Of a stretch of 64,000 nt of DNA, positions 50,197 through 57,589 are shown piece by piece. The translations under genes and the position numbers were made by a program. Below the pieces are notes generated by a model that had not been told where the DNA came from, made no database searches, and saw only the letters and a list, made by a program, of their open reading frames with translations. Numbering within the stretch: position 1 is the first letter of the stretch; each line of letters starts with the position of its first letter. The stretch comes from Haloferax marinisediminis (lineage in GTDB: Archaea > Halobacteriota > Halobacteria > Halobacteriales > Haloferacaceae), in contig NZ_WKJP01000001.1 in NCBI RefSeq assembly GCF_009674585.1, positions 1,984,001 through 2,048,000 of the forward strand, given 5' to 3'.

Positions 50197-51436
50197 ATGT
50201 CTCACAACGACACGGAGGATTCGTCGGGTTCCCCGGCGGGTCGAGTTCTTCCAGGGCACATTAGCCCAACAATCTGAAATCGAAGACGTACGAATCTTCG
50301 ACACGACACTCCGCGACGGCGAACAGTCACCGCGAACCTCGTTCAGTTACGAGGAGAAGCGCGACATTGCCGCCACCCTCGACGACATGGGCACCCACGT
50401 CATCGAGGCAGGGTTCCCGGTGAACTCTGATGCGGAGTTCGAGGCAGTTGCTGATATCGCTGCTTCAGCGGACTATTCGACGACCTGCGGATTGGCCCGC
50501 GTCGTCGACAAGGATATCGAAGCCGCGCTGGATTCCGGCGTGGACATGGTTCACACGTTCGTGAGCACCAGCGATGTCCAGTTGGCCGACTCGATGCACG
50601 CCTCGCGCGAAGAGGCTGTCGAGCGCGCTGTCCGCAGTGTCGAACGCGTCCGCGACGCGGGCGTTGAAGTAATGTTCTCGCCGATGGACGCCACCCGGAC
50701 GGACGAGGAGTTCTTGATAGAAGTCGTCGAAGCGGTCTCCGAGGCCGGCGTCGACTGGATCAACCTCCCCGACACGTGTGGTGTGGCGACGCCGACTCGC
50801 TTCGCCCGGATGGTCCGACTGGTCCGCGAACACACCGACGCCCGAATCGACGTGCACGCGCACGACGACTTCGGTCTGGCGTCGGCGAACGCGATGGCCG
50901 GTTTCGAAGCGGGTGCCGCACAGGCGCAGGTGTCTGTCAACGGCATCGGCGAACGTGCTGGAAACGCCGCCTACGAGGAGGTCGTCATGGCCGCCGAATC
51001 CATCTACGGCGTCGACACCGGCATCGACACCACTCGAATCACCGAGTTAGCTCGCATCGTCGAGAAGGCGTCCGACATCCCGATTCCGGCGAACAAGCCG
51101 GTCGTCGGCCGGAACGCCTTCTCTCACGAGAGCGGCATCCACGCCGCTGGCGTCATCGAGAACGCCGACACGTTCGAACCGGGCGTCATGACCCCAGAGA
51201 TGGTCGGCGCAACACGCGAGTTCGTACTCGGCAAGCACACGGGGACGCACTCGGTTCGCAAGCGCCTCGCAGATATCGGGTTCGAACCGACGGACGCCGA
51301 GGTCCGAGAGGTAACCCGCCGCGTCAAAGACTACGGCGCCTCGAAAGAGCGCGTCAACGACACGACGCTCGAAGCGTTTGCCCGCGACGTCGGTGTAACC
51401 CACGAAGACGAGAAAGAGGAGGAGGTCCGCGCCTGA
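50197..51436 (+). CDS. leuA: 2-isopropylmalate synthase, reading frame broken near the start
   Basis: LeuA condenses 2-oxoisovalerate with acetyl-CoA, the first committed step to leucine. The frame from 50242 reads E-F-F-Q-G-T-L then F-D-T-T-L-R-D-G-E-Q-S-P-R (catalytic). It continues through H-A-H-D-D-F-G-L and G-E-R-A-G-N-A and ends at 51436 without the C-terminal LeuA dimer/regulatory domain, so it may be feedback-insensitive. No ATG, GTG or TTG lies in this frame between the promoter and the conserved part. The ATG at 50197 is in another frame that stops at 50275. Loss of one C in the CCCC at 50231-50234 would join it to leuA. The ATG at 50387 would drop catalytic residues. Confidence 0.8.
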
Positions 51437-51490
51437 TGGCGCTGGGCTGTGGCCCTACTGGGCGACCGCCCTGCACTCGTCCCCGGTCTG

Positions 51491-51507
51491 CGTGCAATCG
51501 TTGCACG
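51491..51507. promoter_or_regulatory. Palindrome upstream of the ilvB leader promoter
   Basis: CGTGCAA and TTGCACG form a perfect 7+3+7 inverted repeat ending 9 bp before the leader TATA element (51517-51526). Its place just upstream of the core promoter fits an activator or Lrp-like dimer site. Confidence 0.5.
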
Positions 51508-51516
51508 TCGCGTAAC

Positions 51517-51526
51517 AGTTATTACC
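51517..51526 (+). promoter_or_regulatory. Promoter of the ilvB leader transcript
   Basis: AGTTATTACC is centred 30 bp before the leader ATG (51551), the same spacing and core as the ileS leader promoter (GTTATT). Confidence 0.55.
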
Positions 51527-51550
51527 ACCCGGGAGAACCAGTGCCATACG

Positions 51551-51652
51551 ATGAATCAGCACGACGCACGATTGGCATCCGCTCCGCCGCAGTCCGCGGC
51601 GAGCGCTGCCGACGTCGCTGCTGTTCGGTCGCTCATTATTGTAGGGGCATAG
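51551..51652 (+). CDS. Leader peptide of the ilv operon (33 aa, ends S-L-I-I-V-G-A)
   Basis: The short frame starts at a leaderless-type promoter and ends in TAG (51650-51652). Its last residues are S-L-I-I-V-G-A, encoded CTC ATT ATT GTA before GGG GCA. All three branched-chain amino acids made by the pathway appear in a row, using rare ATT and GTA codons. A GC stem overlaps the stop. This mirrors bacterial ilv leader peptides in logic. The similar frame before ileS (ending S-S-I-I-A-G-R) supports common function. Neither peptide has been detected; this is a reading of the DNA. Confidence 0.65.
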   Translation: MNQHDARLASAPPQSAASAADVAAVRSLIIVGA

Positions 51653-51656
51653 CCCC
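51644..51656 (+). promoter_or_regulatory. Stem-loop overlapping the ilv leader stop codon
   Basis: GGGGC (51644-51648) pairs with GCCCC (51652-51656) around ATA, with the TAG stop spanning the loop and 3' arm. A ribosome paused at the ATT codons (51635-51640) would sit over the 5' arm. There is no T-run after it, so it may act on translation, on RNA stability or as a weak terminator. Confidence 0.5.
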
Positions 51657-51720
51657 CTCACACTCCATCTCTCAGTCCTCGGGTTCGAACCGTTTTCAGA
51701 CACTTCAGCAGTCCCCAACC

Positions 51721-51804
51721 ATGGAGCACCAGTACCACACAATCGACCGACAGCGTACGCATCGATATCGACCACAAACACACTCGCACGGAGGCCACAC
51801 ATGA
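51721..51804 (+). CDS. Second leader frame of the ilv operon (His-rich, 27 aa)
   Basis: The frame begins M-E-H-Q-Y-H-T, contains H-R-Y-R-P-Q-T, and ends in a TGA that overlaps the ilvB ATG as ATGA. Its 3' part carries a GGAGG sequence (51790-51794) six bases before the ilvB ATG, a good ribosome binding site. The shared Y-R-P-Q-T with the second ileS leader frame, with only synonymous changes, suggests it is translated. It probably delivers ribosomes to ilvB. Confidence 0.55.
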   Translation: MEHQYHTIDRQRTHRYRPQTHSHGGHT

Positions 51805-53558
51805 GCGAACGCACCGCAGCCACGACCGACTCCGACGCGTCGTCGACCGACGACGAACCGAAACGGACCGAAGTCACGTCGGGTGCGACCGCAGTCATCC
51901 GCGCACTCGAAAACGCTGGCGTCGAGACGGCATTCGGCGTGCAGGGAGGGGCAATCATGCCCATCTACGACGCGCTGTACCACTCCGACATCCGGCACGT
52001 GACGATGGCGCACGAACAAGGCGCCGCACACGCCGCAGACGCCTACGGCGTCGTTCGCGGTGACCCCGGCGTCTGTCTCGCCACGTCCGGCCCCGGCGCG
52101 ACGAATCTCGTGACGGGCATCGCCGACGCCAACATGGACTCCGACGCGATGCTGGCTCTCACCGGTCAGGTCCCGTCCGATATGGTCGGGTCCGACGCGT
52201 TCCAGGAGACCGACACCACGGGCGTCACCGCCCCGATTACGAAGCACAACTACTTCGCATCGTCTCCAGACACCGTCGGCGACACCGTCGGCGAAGCGTT
52301 CGCGTTGGCCGCGGAGGGCCGTCCCGGTCCGACGTTGGTCGACCTCCCGAAAGATACCTCACTCGGAGAGACTGACCGCGAACCCGGGCCAGCACGAGCG
52401 CCAGAGACGTCCCGTGCACGGACCGACCCTGACGACGCGCAGGTCGAAGCGGCCGCCCGCGCAATCGAACAAGCGGAGAAACCACTCCTCTTGTTCGGTG
52501 GTGGAGTCATCAAGGCCGACGCCACAGACGTCGCCCGAAAGTTTGCGACCGAGCACCAGATTCCGGTCGTCACGACGATGCCCGGAATCGGTTCGATGCC
52601 AGAAGACGACGAACTCTGCCTCTCGTGGGCAGGGATGCACGGCACTGGGTACGCCAACATGGCGATCACCCACACCGACTGCCTCATCGCAATCGGCACC
52701 CGGTTCGACGACCGCTTGACCGGCGGCATCGACACCTTCGCACCGGAAGCAGAGGTCGTCCACGTCGACATCGACCCGGCGGAAATTTCGAAGAACATCC
52801 ACGCAGACTACCCAGTCGTCGGCGACGCCGGCACTGCCATCGAGAAAATCGACAGCGAGATGGAACACAGTCCGGACGCCCGTGAGTGGCGTGAACAGTG
52901 CCTGACGTGGAAAGACGAATACCCGATGGACTACGCAGCACCCGACGACGAACCACTGAAACCGCAGTTCGTCGTCGAGGCGCTGGACGAAGCGACCCCT
53001 GACGAGACAATCGTCACGAGCGGTGTCGGTCAACACCAGATGTGGGCCGCGCAGTACTGGACGTTCCGCGACCCACGTCGCTGGGTCTCGTCGCACGGAC
53101 TCGGCACGATGGGGTACGGCCTCCCGGCCGCCATCGGTGCCCGACTCGCCGCGGACGACGACGAGACGGTCGTCTGTATCGACGGCGACGCCTCGTTCCT
53201 GATGACGATTCAGGAGCTGTCGGTCGCCGTTCGTGAGGACCTCGACATCACCATCGCCATCCTGAACAACCAGTACATCGGGATGGTTCGCCAGTGGCAG
53301 GACGCCTTCTTCGAAGGTCGCCACATGGCCGCCGGCTACGAGTGGTGCCCGCAGTTCGACAAACTCGCAGAGGCGTTCGGCGCCCGCGGGTGGACTGTCG
53401 ACTCCTACGAGGAGGTTCCGGACGCCATCGAAGAGGCGCTCGCGTACGACGGCCCGTCGGTCATCGACTTCCACGTCGACCCGTCGGAGAACGTCTACCC
53501 GATGGTCTCCTCTGGCGCACCGAACGGAAAATTCGCTCTCTCGGAGGACCAACTATGA
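51801..53558 (+). CDS. ilvB: Acetolactate synthase large subunit
   Basis: IlvB joins pyruvate units, or pyruvate with 2-oxobutyrate, using thiamine diphosphate and FAD, at the start of valine/leucine and isoleucine synthesis. The 585-residue protein has a polar tail to about residue 28, then G-A-T-A-V-I-R-A-L-E-N-A-G-V-E. The catalytic Glu lies in H-E-Q-G-A-A-H near 71. The thiamine diphosphate motif runs from G-D-G-D-A-S-F near 462 to N-N-Q-Y near 492. It overlaps ilvN by four bases and is preceded by the two-frame leader. Confidence 0.96.
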   Translation: MSERTAATTDSDASSTDDEPKRTEVTSGATAVIRALENAGVETAFGVQGGAIMPIYDALYHSDIRHVTMAHEQGAAHAADAYGVVRGDPGVCLATSGPGATNLVTGIADANMDSDAMLALTGQVPSDMVGSDAFQETDTTGVTAPITKHNYFASSPDTVGDTVGEAFALAAEGRPGPTLVDLPKDTSLGETDREPGPARAPETSRARTDPDDAQVEAAARAIEQAEKPLLLFGGGVIKADATDVARKFATEHQIPVVTTMPGIGSMPEDDELCLSWAGMHGTGYANMAITHTDCLIAIGTRFDDRLTGGIDTFAPEAEVVHVDIDPAEISKNIHADYPVVGDAGTAIEKIDSEMEHSPDAREWREQCLTWKDEYPMDYAAPDDEPLKPQFVVEALDEATPDETIVTSGVGQHQMWAAQYWTFRDPRRWVSSHGLGTMGYGLPAAIGARLAADDDETVVCIDGDASFLMTIQELSVAVREDLDITIAILNNQYIGMVRQWQDAFFEGRHMAAGYEWCPQFDKLAEAFGARGWTVDSYEEVPDAIEEALAYDGPSVIDFHVDPSENVYPMVSSGAPNGKFALSEDQL

Positions 53559-54211
53559 GTGACAAGCAGACTGGACTGCAGGGGCCAAGACCTGAAGAAC
53601 GGCCCCACCCTGACGGGCGACGGAACGCCCAGGGAATCCGTATCGACCCCAAAGCCGAGTCGGAACACGAACCACGGCGGACGGTCCTGTCGGCCATCGT
53701 CGAGGACGAACCCGGTGTCCTCTCACGCGTCGCCGGCCTCGCCGCCCGCCGACAGTTCAACATCGAGAGCCTCACCGTGGGGCCGACCACCGTCGAGGGT
53801 CACTCCCGTATCACGATGGTCGTCGAAGAACCCGACCCCGGTATCGACCAGATAGAGAAGCAACTCGCAAAACTCAAGCCCGTCATCTCCATCGGCGAAC
53901 TGGACGACGACGCCATCCGTGCGGAACTCGTCCTCCTGAAGGTTCGCGGTGAAGACCCCGACAAGGTTCACGCAATCACGGAGATGTACGGCGGTACAAC
54001 GCTCGATGCAGGTACGGACACTATCACGGTCCAACTCACCGGCGACGAGCGCAAGATAGACGACGCTGTGGACGCGTTCCGTCGATTCGGCATCATCGAA
54101 ATCGCCCGAACCGGCCAGACCGCCCTCGCCCACGGCGCCAAGAAGACCGTCCCCGGAGAGGAACCCGGAACCTCCGGCGAACCGACGAAACCTACCACAA
54201 ACACCCAATGA
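53555..54211 (+). CDS. ilvN: Acetolactate synthase regulatory subunit
   Basis: The 218-residue subunit binds branched-chain amino acids and controls IlvB. It has a polar N-terminal extension of about 45 residues, an ACT domain with [19 protein letters not shown] (about 46-64) and F-N-I-E-S-L-T-V-G, and the second ALS_ss domain with a typical G-I-I-E-I-A-R-T-G near 185. The ATGA overlaps at both ends place it firmly between ilvB and ilvC in one operon. Confidence 0.95.
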
Positions 54212-55248
54212 CTGAATTCACCACGACTGTATACTACGACGACGACGCAGACCGCTCGCAGATCGACGACAAGACCGTGGCCGTCCTCGGCTACGGCAGC
54301 CAGGGCCACGCCCACGCGCAGAACCTCGCTGACAGCGGTGTCGACGTGGTCGTTGGCCTCCGTGCCGACTCTTCGTCCCGTGCTGCTGCACGCGAAGATG
54401 GACTCCGCGTCGCGACGCCCGTCGAGGCTGCCGCAGAGGCAGACATCGTCTCCGTCCTCGTCCCCGACACCGTCCAACCGGCCGTCTTCGAAGAGATTCG
54501 CGACGAACTCGAACCCGGTGACACGCTCCAGTTCGCCCACGGGTTCAACATCCACTACAACCAGATTCGACCCCCAGAAGACGTCGACGTGACGCTCGTC
54601 GCACCGAAGTCACCCGGTCACCTCGTCCGCCGGAACTACGAGAGCGGAGAGGGAACGCCCGGCCTCATCGCCGTCTATCAGGACACGACTGGAGACGCCA
54701 AAGATGAGGCACTGGCGTACGCCCACGCCATCGGCTGCACTCGTGCGGGTGTCATCCAGACCTCGTTCCGCGAGGAGACCGAGACCGACCTGTTCGGTGA
54801 GCAGGCCGTCCTCTGTGGCGGCGTCACCTCGCTCGTCAAGCAGGGCTACGAGACGCTCGTCGACGCGGGCTACTCCCCAGAGATGGCCTACTTCGAGTGC
54901 CTGAACGAACTGAAGCTCATCGTCGACCTGATGTACGAAGACGGACTCGGCGGCATGTGGCACTCTGTCTCCGACACCGCGGAGTTCGGTGGCCTGACCC
55001 GTGGCGACCGCATCGTCGACGAACACAGTCGCGAGCGCATGGAAGAAGTGCTCGAAGAGGTCCAAGACGGCACGTTCGCCCGTGAGTGGATTCTGGAGAA
55101 CCAGGCGGGTCGCCCGTCGTACTCCCAGCTGAAGGAAGCCGAAGAGAACCACGACATCGAGGAAGTCGGCGCCCGTCTCCGCGAACTGTTCGCGTGGGCC
55201 GACGAGGACGACGACACAGAGAAAGCAGAAGCACCAGCAGACGACTGA
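54208..55248 (+). CDS. ilvC: Ketol-acid reductoisomerase
   Basis: IlvC isomerises and reduces acetolactate or acetohydroxybutyrate with NAD(P)H and magnesium. The 346-residue class I enzyme has the cofactor loop [12 protein letters not shown] near residue 28, [10 protein letters not shown] near 132, and the metal-binding E-x-x-x-E region with [11 protein letters not shown] near 196. The last 20 residues are acidic and probably disordered. The loop after the first strand (L-R-A-D-S-S-S-R) suggests NADPH preference. Confidence 0.96.
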
Positions 55249-55261
55249 CAACACCCACCCA

Positions 55262-55570
55262 ATGACACGAAAGAAAAAACGAGACGACGCATCTGAACGA
55301 ATGCGTGACGTCAGTCACACGAACCCGTACACCGGCGAGACGTTCACCACGGTGTACGAACGTGGGCCGGCAGTCACCGACGGGAGTGGTGCGTCCGACT
55401 CGACGCCCGAGATGACTGGCGGTTCCGAGACGATGGAAGACGTCGACCACACGCCCCGAAACGGCGATGGTGCGAACCGCGTCTGGAAACGCGGCAAACC
55501 GGAGGACGACTCGGAAGAACACAGCGAAAGTGAGACCGCCTCTGGAGACGTAGGTGGCGGAGATGAGTGA
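55262..55570 (+). CDS. Small acidic protein of the ilv-leu operon (unknown)
   Basis: The 102-residue protein sits between ilvC and leuC and overlaps leuC by 8 bases, so it is part of the operon. It is hydrophilic and probably disordered. Two similar segments stand out: M-R-D-V-S-H-T ending V-Y-E-R-G-P (about residues 14-36) and M-E-D-V-D-H-T ending V-W-K-R-G-K-P (about 58-81), an internal duplication. No family function is known. It may help assemble or stabilise the leuCD enzyme, but only the position suggests this. Confidence 0.7.
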
Positions 55571-56984
55571 GGGAACGCTTTACGACAAGGTGTGGGAAGA
55601 ACACACCGTCTCCGAACTGCCGACAGGCCAGACGCAGCTGTTCTGTGGCCTGCACCTCATCCACGAGGTGACGAGCCCACAGGCGTTCGGGATGCTCCAA
55701 GAACGCGACCTCGAGGTCGCCTATCCCGAGCGAACGCACGCGACAGTCGACCACATCGTCCCAACCTCGGACCAGTCGCGGCCGTTCCGTGACGACGCGG
55801 CCGAGGAGATGATGTCCGAACTCGAACAGAACGTCCGCAACGCGGGCATCAACTTCTCTGACCCGACCTCCGGCGACCAGGGTATCGTCCACGTCATCGG
55901 GCCAGAGCAGGGGCTCACCCAACCCGGCATGACCATCGTCTGTGGTGACAGCCACACCTCGACCCACGGCGCGTTCGGTGCGCTGGCGTTCGGTATCGGG
56001 ACGAGCCAAATCCGCGACGTACTGGCGACCCAGACCGTCGCGATGGAGAAGAAGAAAGTTCGAAAAATCGAGGTCACCGGTGAACTCGGCCCGGGCGTCG
56101 AAGCGAAAGACGTCATCCTCGAAATCATCCGTCGGCTGGGAACCGAAGGCGGCGTCGGCTACGTCTACGAGTACGCCGGCGAGGCCATCGAGAACCTCGA
56201 CATGGAAGGTCGGATGAGTATCTGCAACATGTCCATCGAGGGCGGCGCTCGCGCGGGCTACGTCAACCCCGACGAGACCACCTACGAGTGGCTGAAGCAG
56301 ACCGACTACTTCCAGAACAACCCCGAGAAGTTCGACGAACTCAAGCCGTACTGGGAGTCCATCCGCTCCGACGAGGACGCCGAGTACGACGACGTCGTCA
56401 CCATCGACGGGTCGGAACTCGAACCCGTCGTCACGTGGGGGACCACGCCCGGACAGGGCGTCGGCATCACCCAACCCATCCCGGCACCCGAAGACCTGCC
56501 CGAAGAGAAGCAGGACACGGCCCGGATGGCACAAGAACACATGCGGGTCACGCCCGGCGAGACGATGGAAGGCTACAAAATCGACGTCGCCTTCCTCGGT
56601 TCGTGTACCAACGCCCGGATGCCCGACCTGCGCCGCGCCGCAGAGGTCGTCAAAGGACGCCAAGTCGCAGACAGCGTTCGTGCGATGGTCGTCCCCGGCA
56701 GTCAGCGCGTCAAGGCCGCCGCCGAAGCGGAGGGTCTCGACAAAGTGTTCAAAGACGCCGGCTTCGAGTGGCGAGAAGCAGGGTGTTCGATGTGTCTCGG
56801 CATGAACGAAGACCAACTGCAGGGTGACGAGGCGTCTGCGTCCTCGTCGAACCGCAACTTCATCGGTCGGCAGGGGTCGAAAGACGGCCGCACCGTCCTG
56901 ATGAACCCGCGCATGGTCGCCGCGGCGGCCATCACTGGGGAAGTGACTGACGTCCGCGAACTGAAGGAGGTGAGCACGGTATGA
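55563..56984 (+). CDS. leuC: 3-isopropylmalate dehydratase large subunit
   Basis: LeuC with LeuD isomerises 2-isopropylmalate to 3-isopropylmalate through a 4Fe-4S cluster. The 473-residue subunit opens [10 protein letters not shown] and has [18 protein letters not shown] near residue 126, and the cluster cysteines in G-S-C-T-N-A-R near 347 and C-S-M-C-L-G near 409. The ATG at 55563 is used. A GTG nine bases earlier would add three residues. It overlaps the small upstream gene and leuD. Confidence 0.95.
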
Positions 56985-57589
56985 CCGACGAGATTCCAGA
57001 GATCCATTCGGCCTCCGGGTCGGGCGTTCCCATCCGTGGCAACGACATCGACACGGACCAGATTATCCCAGCGCGGTTCATGAAGGTCGTCACGTTCGAC
57101 GGCCTCGGTGAGTTCGCGTTCTTCGACCAGCGCTACGACGAGAACGACGACCCCAAAGACCATCCGATGAACGAGGCGCACTTCCAGGACGCCTCCATCA
57201 TGGTCGTCAACGCCAACTTCGGCTGTGGGTCTTCGCGCGAACACGCCCCACAGGCGCTCATGCGCTGGGGTATCGACGCCATCATCGGCGAGTCGTTCGC
57301 CGAAATCTTCGCCGGCAACTGTCTCGCACTCGGCATCCCGACGGTCACGGCCGACCACGACACCATCGTCGAACTCCAGGCGTGGGTCGACGAGAACCCC
57401 GACGGCGACATCGACGTCGACGTCGAGAACGAGACGGTCACCTACGGCGACGAGACGGTCGACGTCACCGTCGACGACGCACAGCGGAAGGCGCTCACCG
57501 AGGGCGTCTGGGACACGACGGCGCTCATGAAGTCGAACGCCGACGCAGTCGCCGAGAAAGCACGCTCGCTCCCCTACATCGATGACTGA
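56981..57589 (+). CDS. leuD: 3-isopropylmalate dehydratase small subunit
   Basis: The 202-residue LeuD supplies the swivelling domain of the dehydratase. It has [13 protein letters not shown] near residue 20, [11 protein letters not shown] near 78, and [13 protein letters not shown] near 100. The acidic C-terminal part D-G-D-I-D-V-D-V-E is adapted to high salt. It overlaps leuC by four bases and leuB by eight. Confidence 0.95.

Follow-up and report, generated by a model that had tools for sequence, protein, structure and literature searches.

Upstream of ilvB, nearly all genomes of Halobacteria carry a short leader ORF that ends in isoleucine and valine codons and places its stop codon at a hairpin, an observation that was confirmed as real, class-wide and far beyond chance. 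We propose that this leader is probably an Ile/Val-sensing, ribosome-mediated attenuator of ilvBNC-leuCD, which would act most plausibly on transcription and be bypassed by translation coupled to leuA. Its anatomy, conservation, reading frames, covariation and codon constraints were read directly from the genomes. The element was noticed in a 64,000-nt stretch of the Haloferax marinisediminis genome (contig NZ_WKJP01000001.1, positions 1,984,001 to 2,048,000; hereafter the window, to which all coordinates refer).

A domain search showed that the genes located 3' of the leader form the operon ilvB-ilvN-ilvC-(small ORF)-leuC-leuD and that leuA lies immediately 5' (Table 1). The small ORF between ilvC and leuC (55262-55570) is unassigned and has a length of 102 aa. 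In H. volcanii, ilvB1 and ilvC mutants require Val, Leu and Ile (PMC4300041).

Table 1. Features of the leuA-ilvB region and of the downstream operon in the window
Feature	Position	Strand	Remarks
leuA (leuA2); out-of-frame start ATG 50197, putative +1 slip site CGAGTTCTTC 50242-50251	50197..51436	+	
Bridge ORF, 122 codons, leader's -1 frame	51436..51804	+	Frame open in 96/106
TATA-like box TTATTA of the putative leader promoter, 32 nt 5' of leader ATG	51519..51524	+	
Leader ORF (uORF1), 33 codons, MNQHDARLASAPPQSAASAADVAAVRSLIIVGA-TAG, C-terminus S-L-I-I-V-G-A	51551..51652	+	In frame in 105/106 relatives
P1 5' arm (start of leader mRNA)	51553..51566	+	Own vs swapped pairing
P1 3' arm, just 5' of the regulatory codons	51613..51626	+	Own vs swapped pairing
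Regulatory codons CTC-ATT-ATT-GTA (Leu-Ile-Ile-Val)	51632..51643	+	I/V/L before GTA in 106/106
Hairpin GGGGC-ATA-GCCCC containing the leader stop	51644..51656	+	Covariation, mean z -2.75
G-free pyrimidine-rich tract immediately 3' of the hairpin; possible terminator or site of FttA entry	51657..51674	+	
GAACCGTTTTC (class motif GCAYCGTTYTC), T4C candidate terminator	51687..51697	+	
uORF2, 27 codons, from an ATG inside the bridge ORF and in its frame	51721..51804	+	
ilvB, acetolactate synthase large subunit	51801..53558	+	TPP_enzyme N, M, C
ilvN + ilvC	53555..55248	+	ACT_AHAS_ss, ALS_ss_C; KARI_N, KARI_C
leuC + leuD	55554..57589	+	Aconitase, Aconitase_C

The leader and its distribution in Halobacteria

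The first-pass annotation of this DNA had described a leaderless frame of 33 codons ahead of ilvB, with a GGGGC/GCCCC stem overlapping its TAG stop. The frame was found exactly where it had been placed, and the stem does contain the TAG (51650-51652), which falls within its 3' arm. Leaderless initiation from a promoter of its own is the most likely start, since an AT-rich hexamer stands 31-32 nt 5' of the leader ATG in 80 of the 106 relatives, as the TTATTA box does in the window. A frame-blind choice of start, taking whichever ATG comes first after the best TATA-like hexamer, gave an ATG in the leader frame in 105 of the 106 cases. Stops before the hairpin numbered 0 in the leader frame and 63 in its +1 frame. 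The leader thus appears as a short, translated-looking ORF with its own promoter, directly 5' of the operon whose pathway it would sense.

To describe its conservation, 111 ilvB loci were compared, of which 80 came from named genomes and 30 from ten families, the window locus being the last one. The leader, with its frame, its I/V-GTA codons and its stop-containing hairpin, was present at 108 of these loci, and the comparative counts reported here concern the 106 distinct leaders among them. These counts are taken over phylogenetically non-independent loci, tests at the level of sequence clusters being those of stem P1 and of the bridge ORF (see below). The element was missing at three loci, L103, where it is degenerate, L110 and L118. 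The degenerate leader of L103 (genome G010) ends in IRVRAAMAH* and shows a GGGCC/GGCCC stem instead of GGGGY/RCCCC.

At the genome level, a pattern search retrieved the DNA motif in 137 of 145 Halobacteria genomes, covering 10 families and 54 of 58 genera at about one copy per genome, and a reversed control pattern seldom matched. In the rest of the phylum, only 5 of the 61 genomes searched contained the motif, and there the stem had no stop codon. A looser GTAGGGG...CCCC pattern detected three further genome sites besides the leader, all three of which are missed by the stricter ATY pattern; the one that was inspected, L085, held nothing comparable to the leader. Genome G069 possesses two ilvB copies (C1:2243829 and 2347044), respectively 66% and 65% identical to the window ilvB, and only the first sits behind the leader motif. 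No recurring Trp- or His-rich leaders were found upstream of trpC and hisG in 29 genomes, so that leaders resembling attenuators do not seem to be a general haloarchaeal device.

The hairpin, its downstream tract and the bridge frame

The stem region of the window is predicted to fold with -10.4 kcal/mol (z -2.3). The innermost pair of the stem is C-G in 73, T-A in 17 and T-G in 3 of 105 leaders; it is of the Watson-Crick type in 90 of 105, compared to a mean of 61 and a maximum of 74 in shuffles. In several T-A and C-G pairs the partner is not part of the stop codon, so that conservation of the stop alone cannot explain this covariation. In Halorubrum, the stem is extended to GUAGGGG/CCCCUAC. 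The picture drawn by the first-pass annotation was incomplete in that it overlooked the tract downstream of the hairpin, the -1 frame bridge ORF and a second, conserved stem, P1, in which the first nucleotides of the leader pair with a segment located about 10 nt before GTA. Across 55 sequence clusters, the 5' and 3' segments of the same leader paired better than swapped ones (z -5.6). Neither RNAalifold on groups of leaders nor the P1 test revealed a mutually exclusive antiterminator hairpin; none would be required if the ribosome itself masked the 5' arm. Pairing of the GGGG with a TCCCC before uORF2, which would compete with the hairpin, was seen in Haloferax only.

The 15 or so nucleotides following the hairpin contain 4% G and 65-88% pyrimidines, with T reaching 45% at +10 to +15. 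Unlike that of a bacterial terminator, the T tract is short, often interspersed with C and situated about 9 nt behind the stem, and it forms no uniform T run. T4C runs occur within 60 nt past the leader stop in 39 of 106 loci versus 0-1 in control windows; against the 19 obtained in order-1 shuffles of the same T-rich window, this is an approximately twofold enrichment. The motif GCAYCGTTYTC was found about 35 nt past the leader stop in 45 of 106 loci (at most 2 mismatches) compared to 3.6 in shuffles, and was absent from 61 of 106. Intergenic terminators of H. volcanii consist of T stretches ending at C, and termination reached 95% with T5C and 59% with a tested hairpin (PMC7237163).

In the window, the bridge ORF starts at an ATG overlapping the leuA stop (TGATG), passes through the leader, the hairpin and the spacer, and ends on the ilvB start (ATGA), which is the layout of a translationally coupled ORF bridging two genes. 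Among the 106 loci, the -1 frame is open over the intergenic part in 105, over the spacer in 97 and over both in 96, whereas shuffles predict 27; among cluster representatives it is open in 47 of 55 versus 14 expected. In 48 of 55 clusters, the bridge frame has an ATG at or just past the leuA stop, and a single cluster has this ATG in a different frame. The TGA that closes the bridge frame shares nucleotides with the ilvB start codon, as ATGA or GTGA, in 42 of 55 clusters. Only a -1 offset between leader and bridge is possible because the TAG within the invariant GTAGGGG closes the +1 frame. Divergent pairs gave a weak pN/pS of about 0.8 for the bridge ORF, the amino acid sequence of which is hardly conserved, so that this frame seems to be kept open for its translation rather than for its product.

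Regarding uORF2, the ATGs at this place are distributed 100/14/4 among the frames, and the I+L+V content of the peptide in relatives is 3.2% versus 18.8% in the operon proteins, as if uORF2 stayed translatable under a shortage of these amino acids. We dropped the view of uORF2 as a separate leader, the whole -1 frame being open up to leuA. In Haloferax and many Natrialbaceae, GCAYCGTTYTC stands 33-34 nt 5' of the uORF2 ATG (window 51687-51721). It was considered as a uORF2 promoter and discarded, as other genera maintain the distance of about 35 nt to the leader stop and not the distance to the ATG; it may still have a second role as a promoter or initiation signal.

Control could instead be translational: the hairpin, together with a ribosome that is either released or stalled, would then determine the extent of re-initiation at the uORF2 ATG, and thus the translation of ilvB through ATGA, with no termination of transcription. 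The frame of uORF2, the bias of its ATG, the ATGA overlap, the near absence of I/L/V codons and the fixed spacing to GCAYCGTTYTC in Haloferax and many Natrialbaceae all agree with such a scheme. We nevertheless judge it rather unlikely, although worth keeping in mind, as about one locus in five either lacks the uORF2 ATG or has it at a shifted position, no conserved pairing links the hairpin to the uORF2 start, and the G-free T/C tract directly behind the stem fits termination better.

A different use of the open -1 frame would be starvation frameshifting, in which a ribosome on hungry Ile or Val codons slips by -1 into the bridge frame, avoids the leader stop and so reaches ilvB. In most loci no stop interrupts this frame between the leader and the ilvB ATGA, a hairpin lies 3' of the hungry codons, and the adjacent leuA2 itself seems to depend on slippage, for which leucine has been suggested as the signal (PMC8305020). 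However, re-pairing at AUU and GUA is poor once the ribosome has slipped by -1, and the extension of the bridge frame in the 5' direction to the ATG on the leuA stop would be superfluous for a frameshift, which makes this explanation improbable.

Putative control codons and the body of the leader peptide

The codon preceding GTA is ATT in 79, ATC in 24, GTA in 2 and CTC in 1 of the 106 leaders, corresponding to 103 Ile, 2 Val and 1 Leu; nature has therefore made Ile to Val and Ile to Leu swaps at this position. The following GTA-GGG is invariant in all 106 leaders, and the stop has a constant place at the GGGGY/RCCCC stem. It is TAG in 75, TAA in 20 and TGA in 11 leaders; four leaders carry it just behind the stem-loop and all others within it. 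The S-L-I-I-V-G-A ending emphasized by the first-pass annotation is present in the window leader, but L-I-I-V is found in a subset of leaders only: strict retention across all leaders is limited to one or two terminal branched-chain codons, and the conserved core is [I/V/L]-V-G-[A/V]-(x)-stop. The alignment of ilvB leaders that it had proposed as a check, here run over Halobacteria, thus upheld the frame and the stem and did not uphold the invariance of L-I-I-V. Ile, Leu and Val nonetheless account for 60% of the last 7 leader codons versus 13% of the codons before them. ATT and GTA had rightly been called rare, as they represent respectively 10.6% of the Ile codons and 4.1% of the Val codons in the neighbouring operon genes.

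The nucleotide invariance of GTAGGGG in 106 of 106 leaders goes beyond what Val and Gly codons need, so that this stretch may have a role as RNA. One reading would be that the GUAGGGGY-hairpin is recognised, as RNA or DNA, by a protein or a ligand, the short ORF being incidental. We consider this reading very doubtful: no codons other than those for Ile, Val and Leu occur before GTA, the stops change between TAG, TAA and TGA yet stay in frame, the frame is kept in 105 of 106 leaders and the promoter is set to the leader ATG. In addition, Rfam (Rfam 15) gave no family match at the leader loci, a chance hit to Cgb105 being below the cut-off; the T-box covariance model was not matched either, in line with the earlier statement that T-box riboswitches are not known in haloarchaea.

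That the leader encodes a functional small protein, as its conserved frame and end motif might suggest, was rejected as most improbable, since 27 independent pairs gave a neutral pN/pS of 1.01 for its body, with no purifying selection on its amino acids, its length ranges from 19 to 55 codons and neither Pfam nor NCBIfam gave a match. A neutral body fits the leader of an attenuator or sensor, and the leader indeed combines codons for the end products of the pathway beside a hairpin with an otherwise unconstrained peptide. The attenuator interpretation is partly supported, in that all of its comparative predictions that were examined, as to frame, codons, covarying stem, neutral body, promoter and pathway-specific position, were borne out.

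Proposed mechanism and relation to known systems

From these features we infer stalling, termination, a contribution of FttA, read-through and a use of the bridge, in the following manner. The leaderless transcript would begin at the leader ATG. When Ile-tRNA and Val-tRNA are charged, the ribosome would clear I-(I)-V, terminate at the stop within the stem and depart; the GGGGY/RCCCC hairpin would then fold, and transcription would most likely end in the G-free pyrimidine/T tract, probably with FttA/aCPSF1. When Ile or Val is short, the ribosome would stall at the last branched-chain codons with its leading edge covering the 5' arm; by analogy with the bacterial footprint, an Ile or Val codon in the A site would place the GGGG under the ribosome. 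With the 5' arm masked, no hairpin would form and RNA polymerase would continue into ilvB. On transcripts derived from leuA, ribosomes finishing LeuA would resume translation at the ATG that overlaps the leuA stop, follow the -1 frame of the bridge ORF through the entire element and pass to ilvB at ATGA. Bridge translation would thereby bypass the attenuator and couple ilvB to leuA.

The nearest published design is the ilvB leader of actinobacteria (Corynebacterium, Mycobacterium and Streptomyces; PMC1262725, PMC11857589), which has the same short ORF at the head of the same operon, with Ile/Val/Leu codons overlapping a hairpin (PMC1262725). The actinobacterial leaders differ in their intrinsic terminator with a poly-U run, and that of C. 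glutamicum has three hairpins, whereas the haloarchaeal leader shows a leaderless start, a stop inside the stem and a -1 frame bridge ORF, and has no poly-U run. In the enterobacterial ilv and leu attenuators, the leader peptide is rich in the end products of the pathway and a 1:2 hairpin is formed. P1 resembles this 1:2 hairpin and both kinds of leader carry end-product codons, but the haloarchaeal leader contains few control codons instead of long runs, and no antiterminator was found. In the Rho-dependent control of E. coli tnaC, free tryptophan is sensed at the stop codon of the leader; similarly, a ribosome at the end of the ilvB leader could shield an entry site for a termination factor beside the stop codon. 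In archaea FttA is used instead of Rho, to which it is analogous but not homologous (PMC11616081).

The first-pass annotation knew of no established attenuation of this kind in haloarchaea, and our search over part of the literature likewise found no published archaeal case; a review of archaeal transcription-translation coupling leaves attenuation unmentioned. To our knowledge, attenuation mediated by ribosomes is seen as a bacterial invention, and the ilvB leader seems to be the first archaeal example known of a ribosome-sensing attenuator. Weinberg et al. reportedly described in 2017 a leuA-Halobacteria RNA motif, which is a candidate for the cis-regulation of branched-chain genes in this class. 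If the proposed attenuation is true, a whole class of archaea would use coupled translation and transcription for gene control, with leaderless initiation and FttA-type termination replacing the Shine-Dalgarno sequence and Rho or intrinsic terminators. Translation-dependent termination in archaea would then become directly testable at one native locus of Haloferax volcanii. The bridge ORF adds a layout in which two ribosome paths run in different frames over one regulatory RNA, for which we know of no precedent.

A further possibility, which we put forward tentatively, is a dual-coded switch with two inputs, in which the Ile/Val leader is combined with a branched-chain-poor -1 bridge and ribosomes coming from leuA override the attenuator; we are likewise not aware of a precedent for it. 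Within such a switch, it is conceivable, with similar reserve, that the leuA ribosomes are released by leucine-dependent +1 slippage, shortages of Leu and of Ile/Val being integrated through ribosomes that compete on one RNA. The Leu and Ile/Val supplies could meet here because leuA2 slippage may depend on leucine. Indeed, the start-codon and slippage problem of leuA2 has been published for HVO_1510, the translation of which was proposed to be leucine-dependent (PMC8305020). This case belongs to the same operon region and class as the ilvB leader; it involves an out-of-frame ATG and putative slippage, whereas the ilvB leader is a separate, terminated leader.

The 5' ends of leuA were compared at 79 loci (L001-L080). 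At 69 of them, leuA has no in-frame ATG, GTG or TTG within 75 nt, and at all 79 an out-of-frame ATG is present, the frame of which passes through an invariant CGAGTTCTTC. New here for leuA2 is this class-wide invariance of the out-of-frame ATG and of CGAGTTCTTC. Linking this ATG to LeuA needs a +1 slip, for which the CTT-C (Leu) sequence is perhaps the site. At L110 (genome G124), which lacks the ilvB leader, a short ORF, MPHIEGTSVVPADRVLPRAA*, lies about 500 nt before ilvB. At the DNA level this ORF resembles the slip region of leuA2 (CCGGCGGATCGAGTTCTTCC), which looks as though the leuA2 leader had moved before ilvB.
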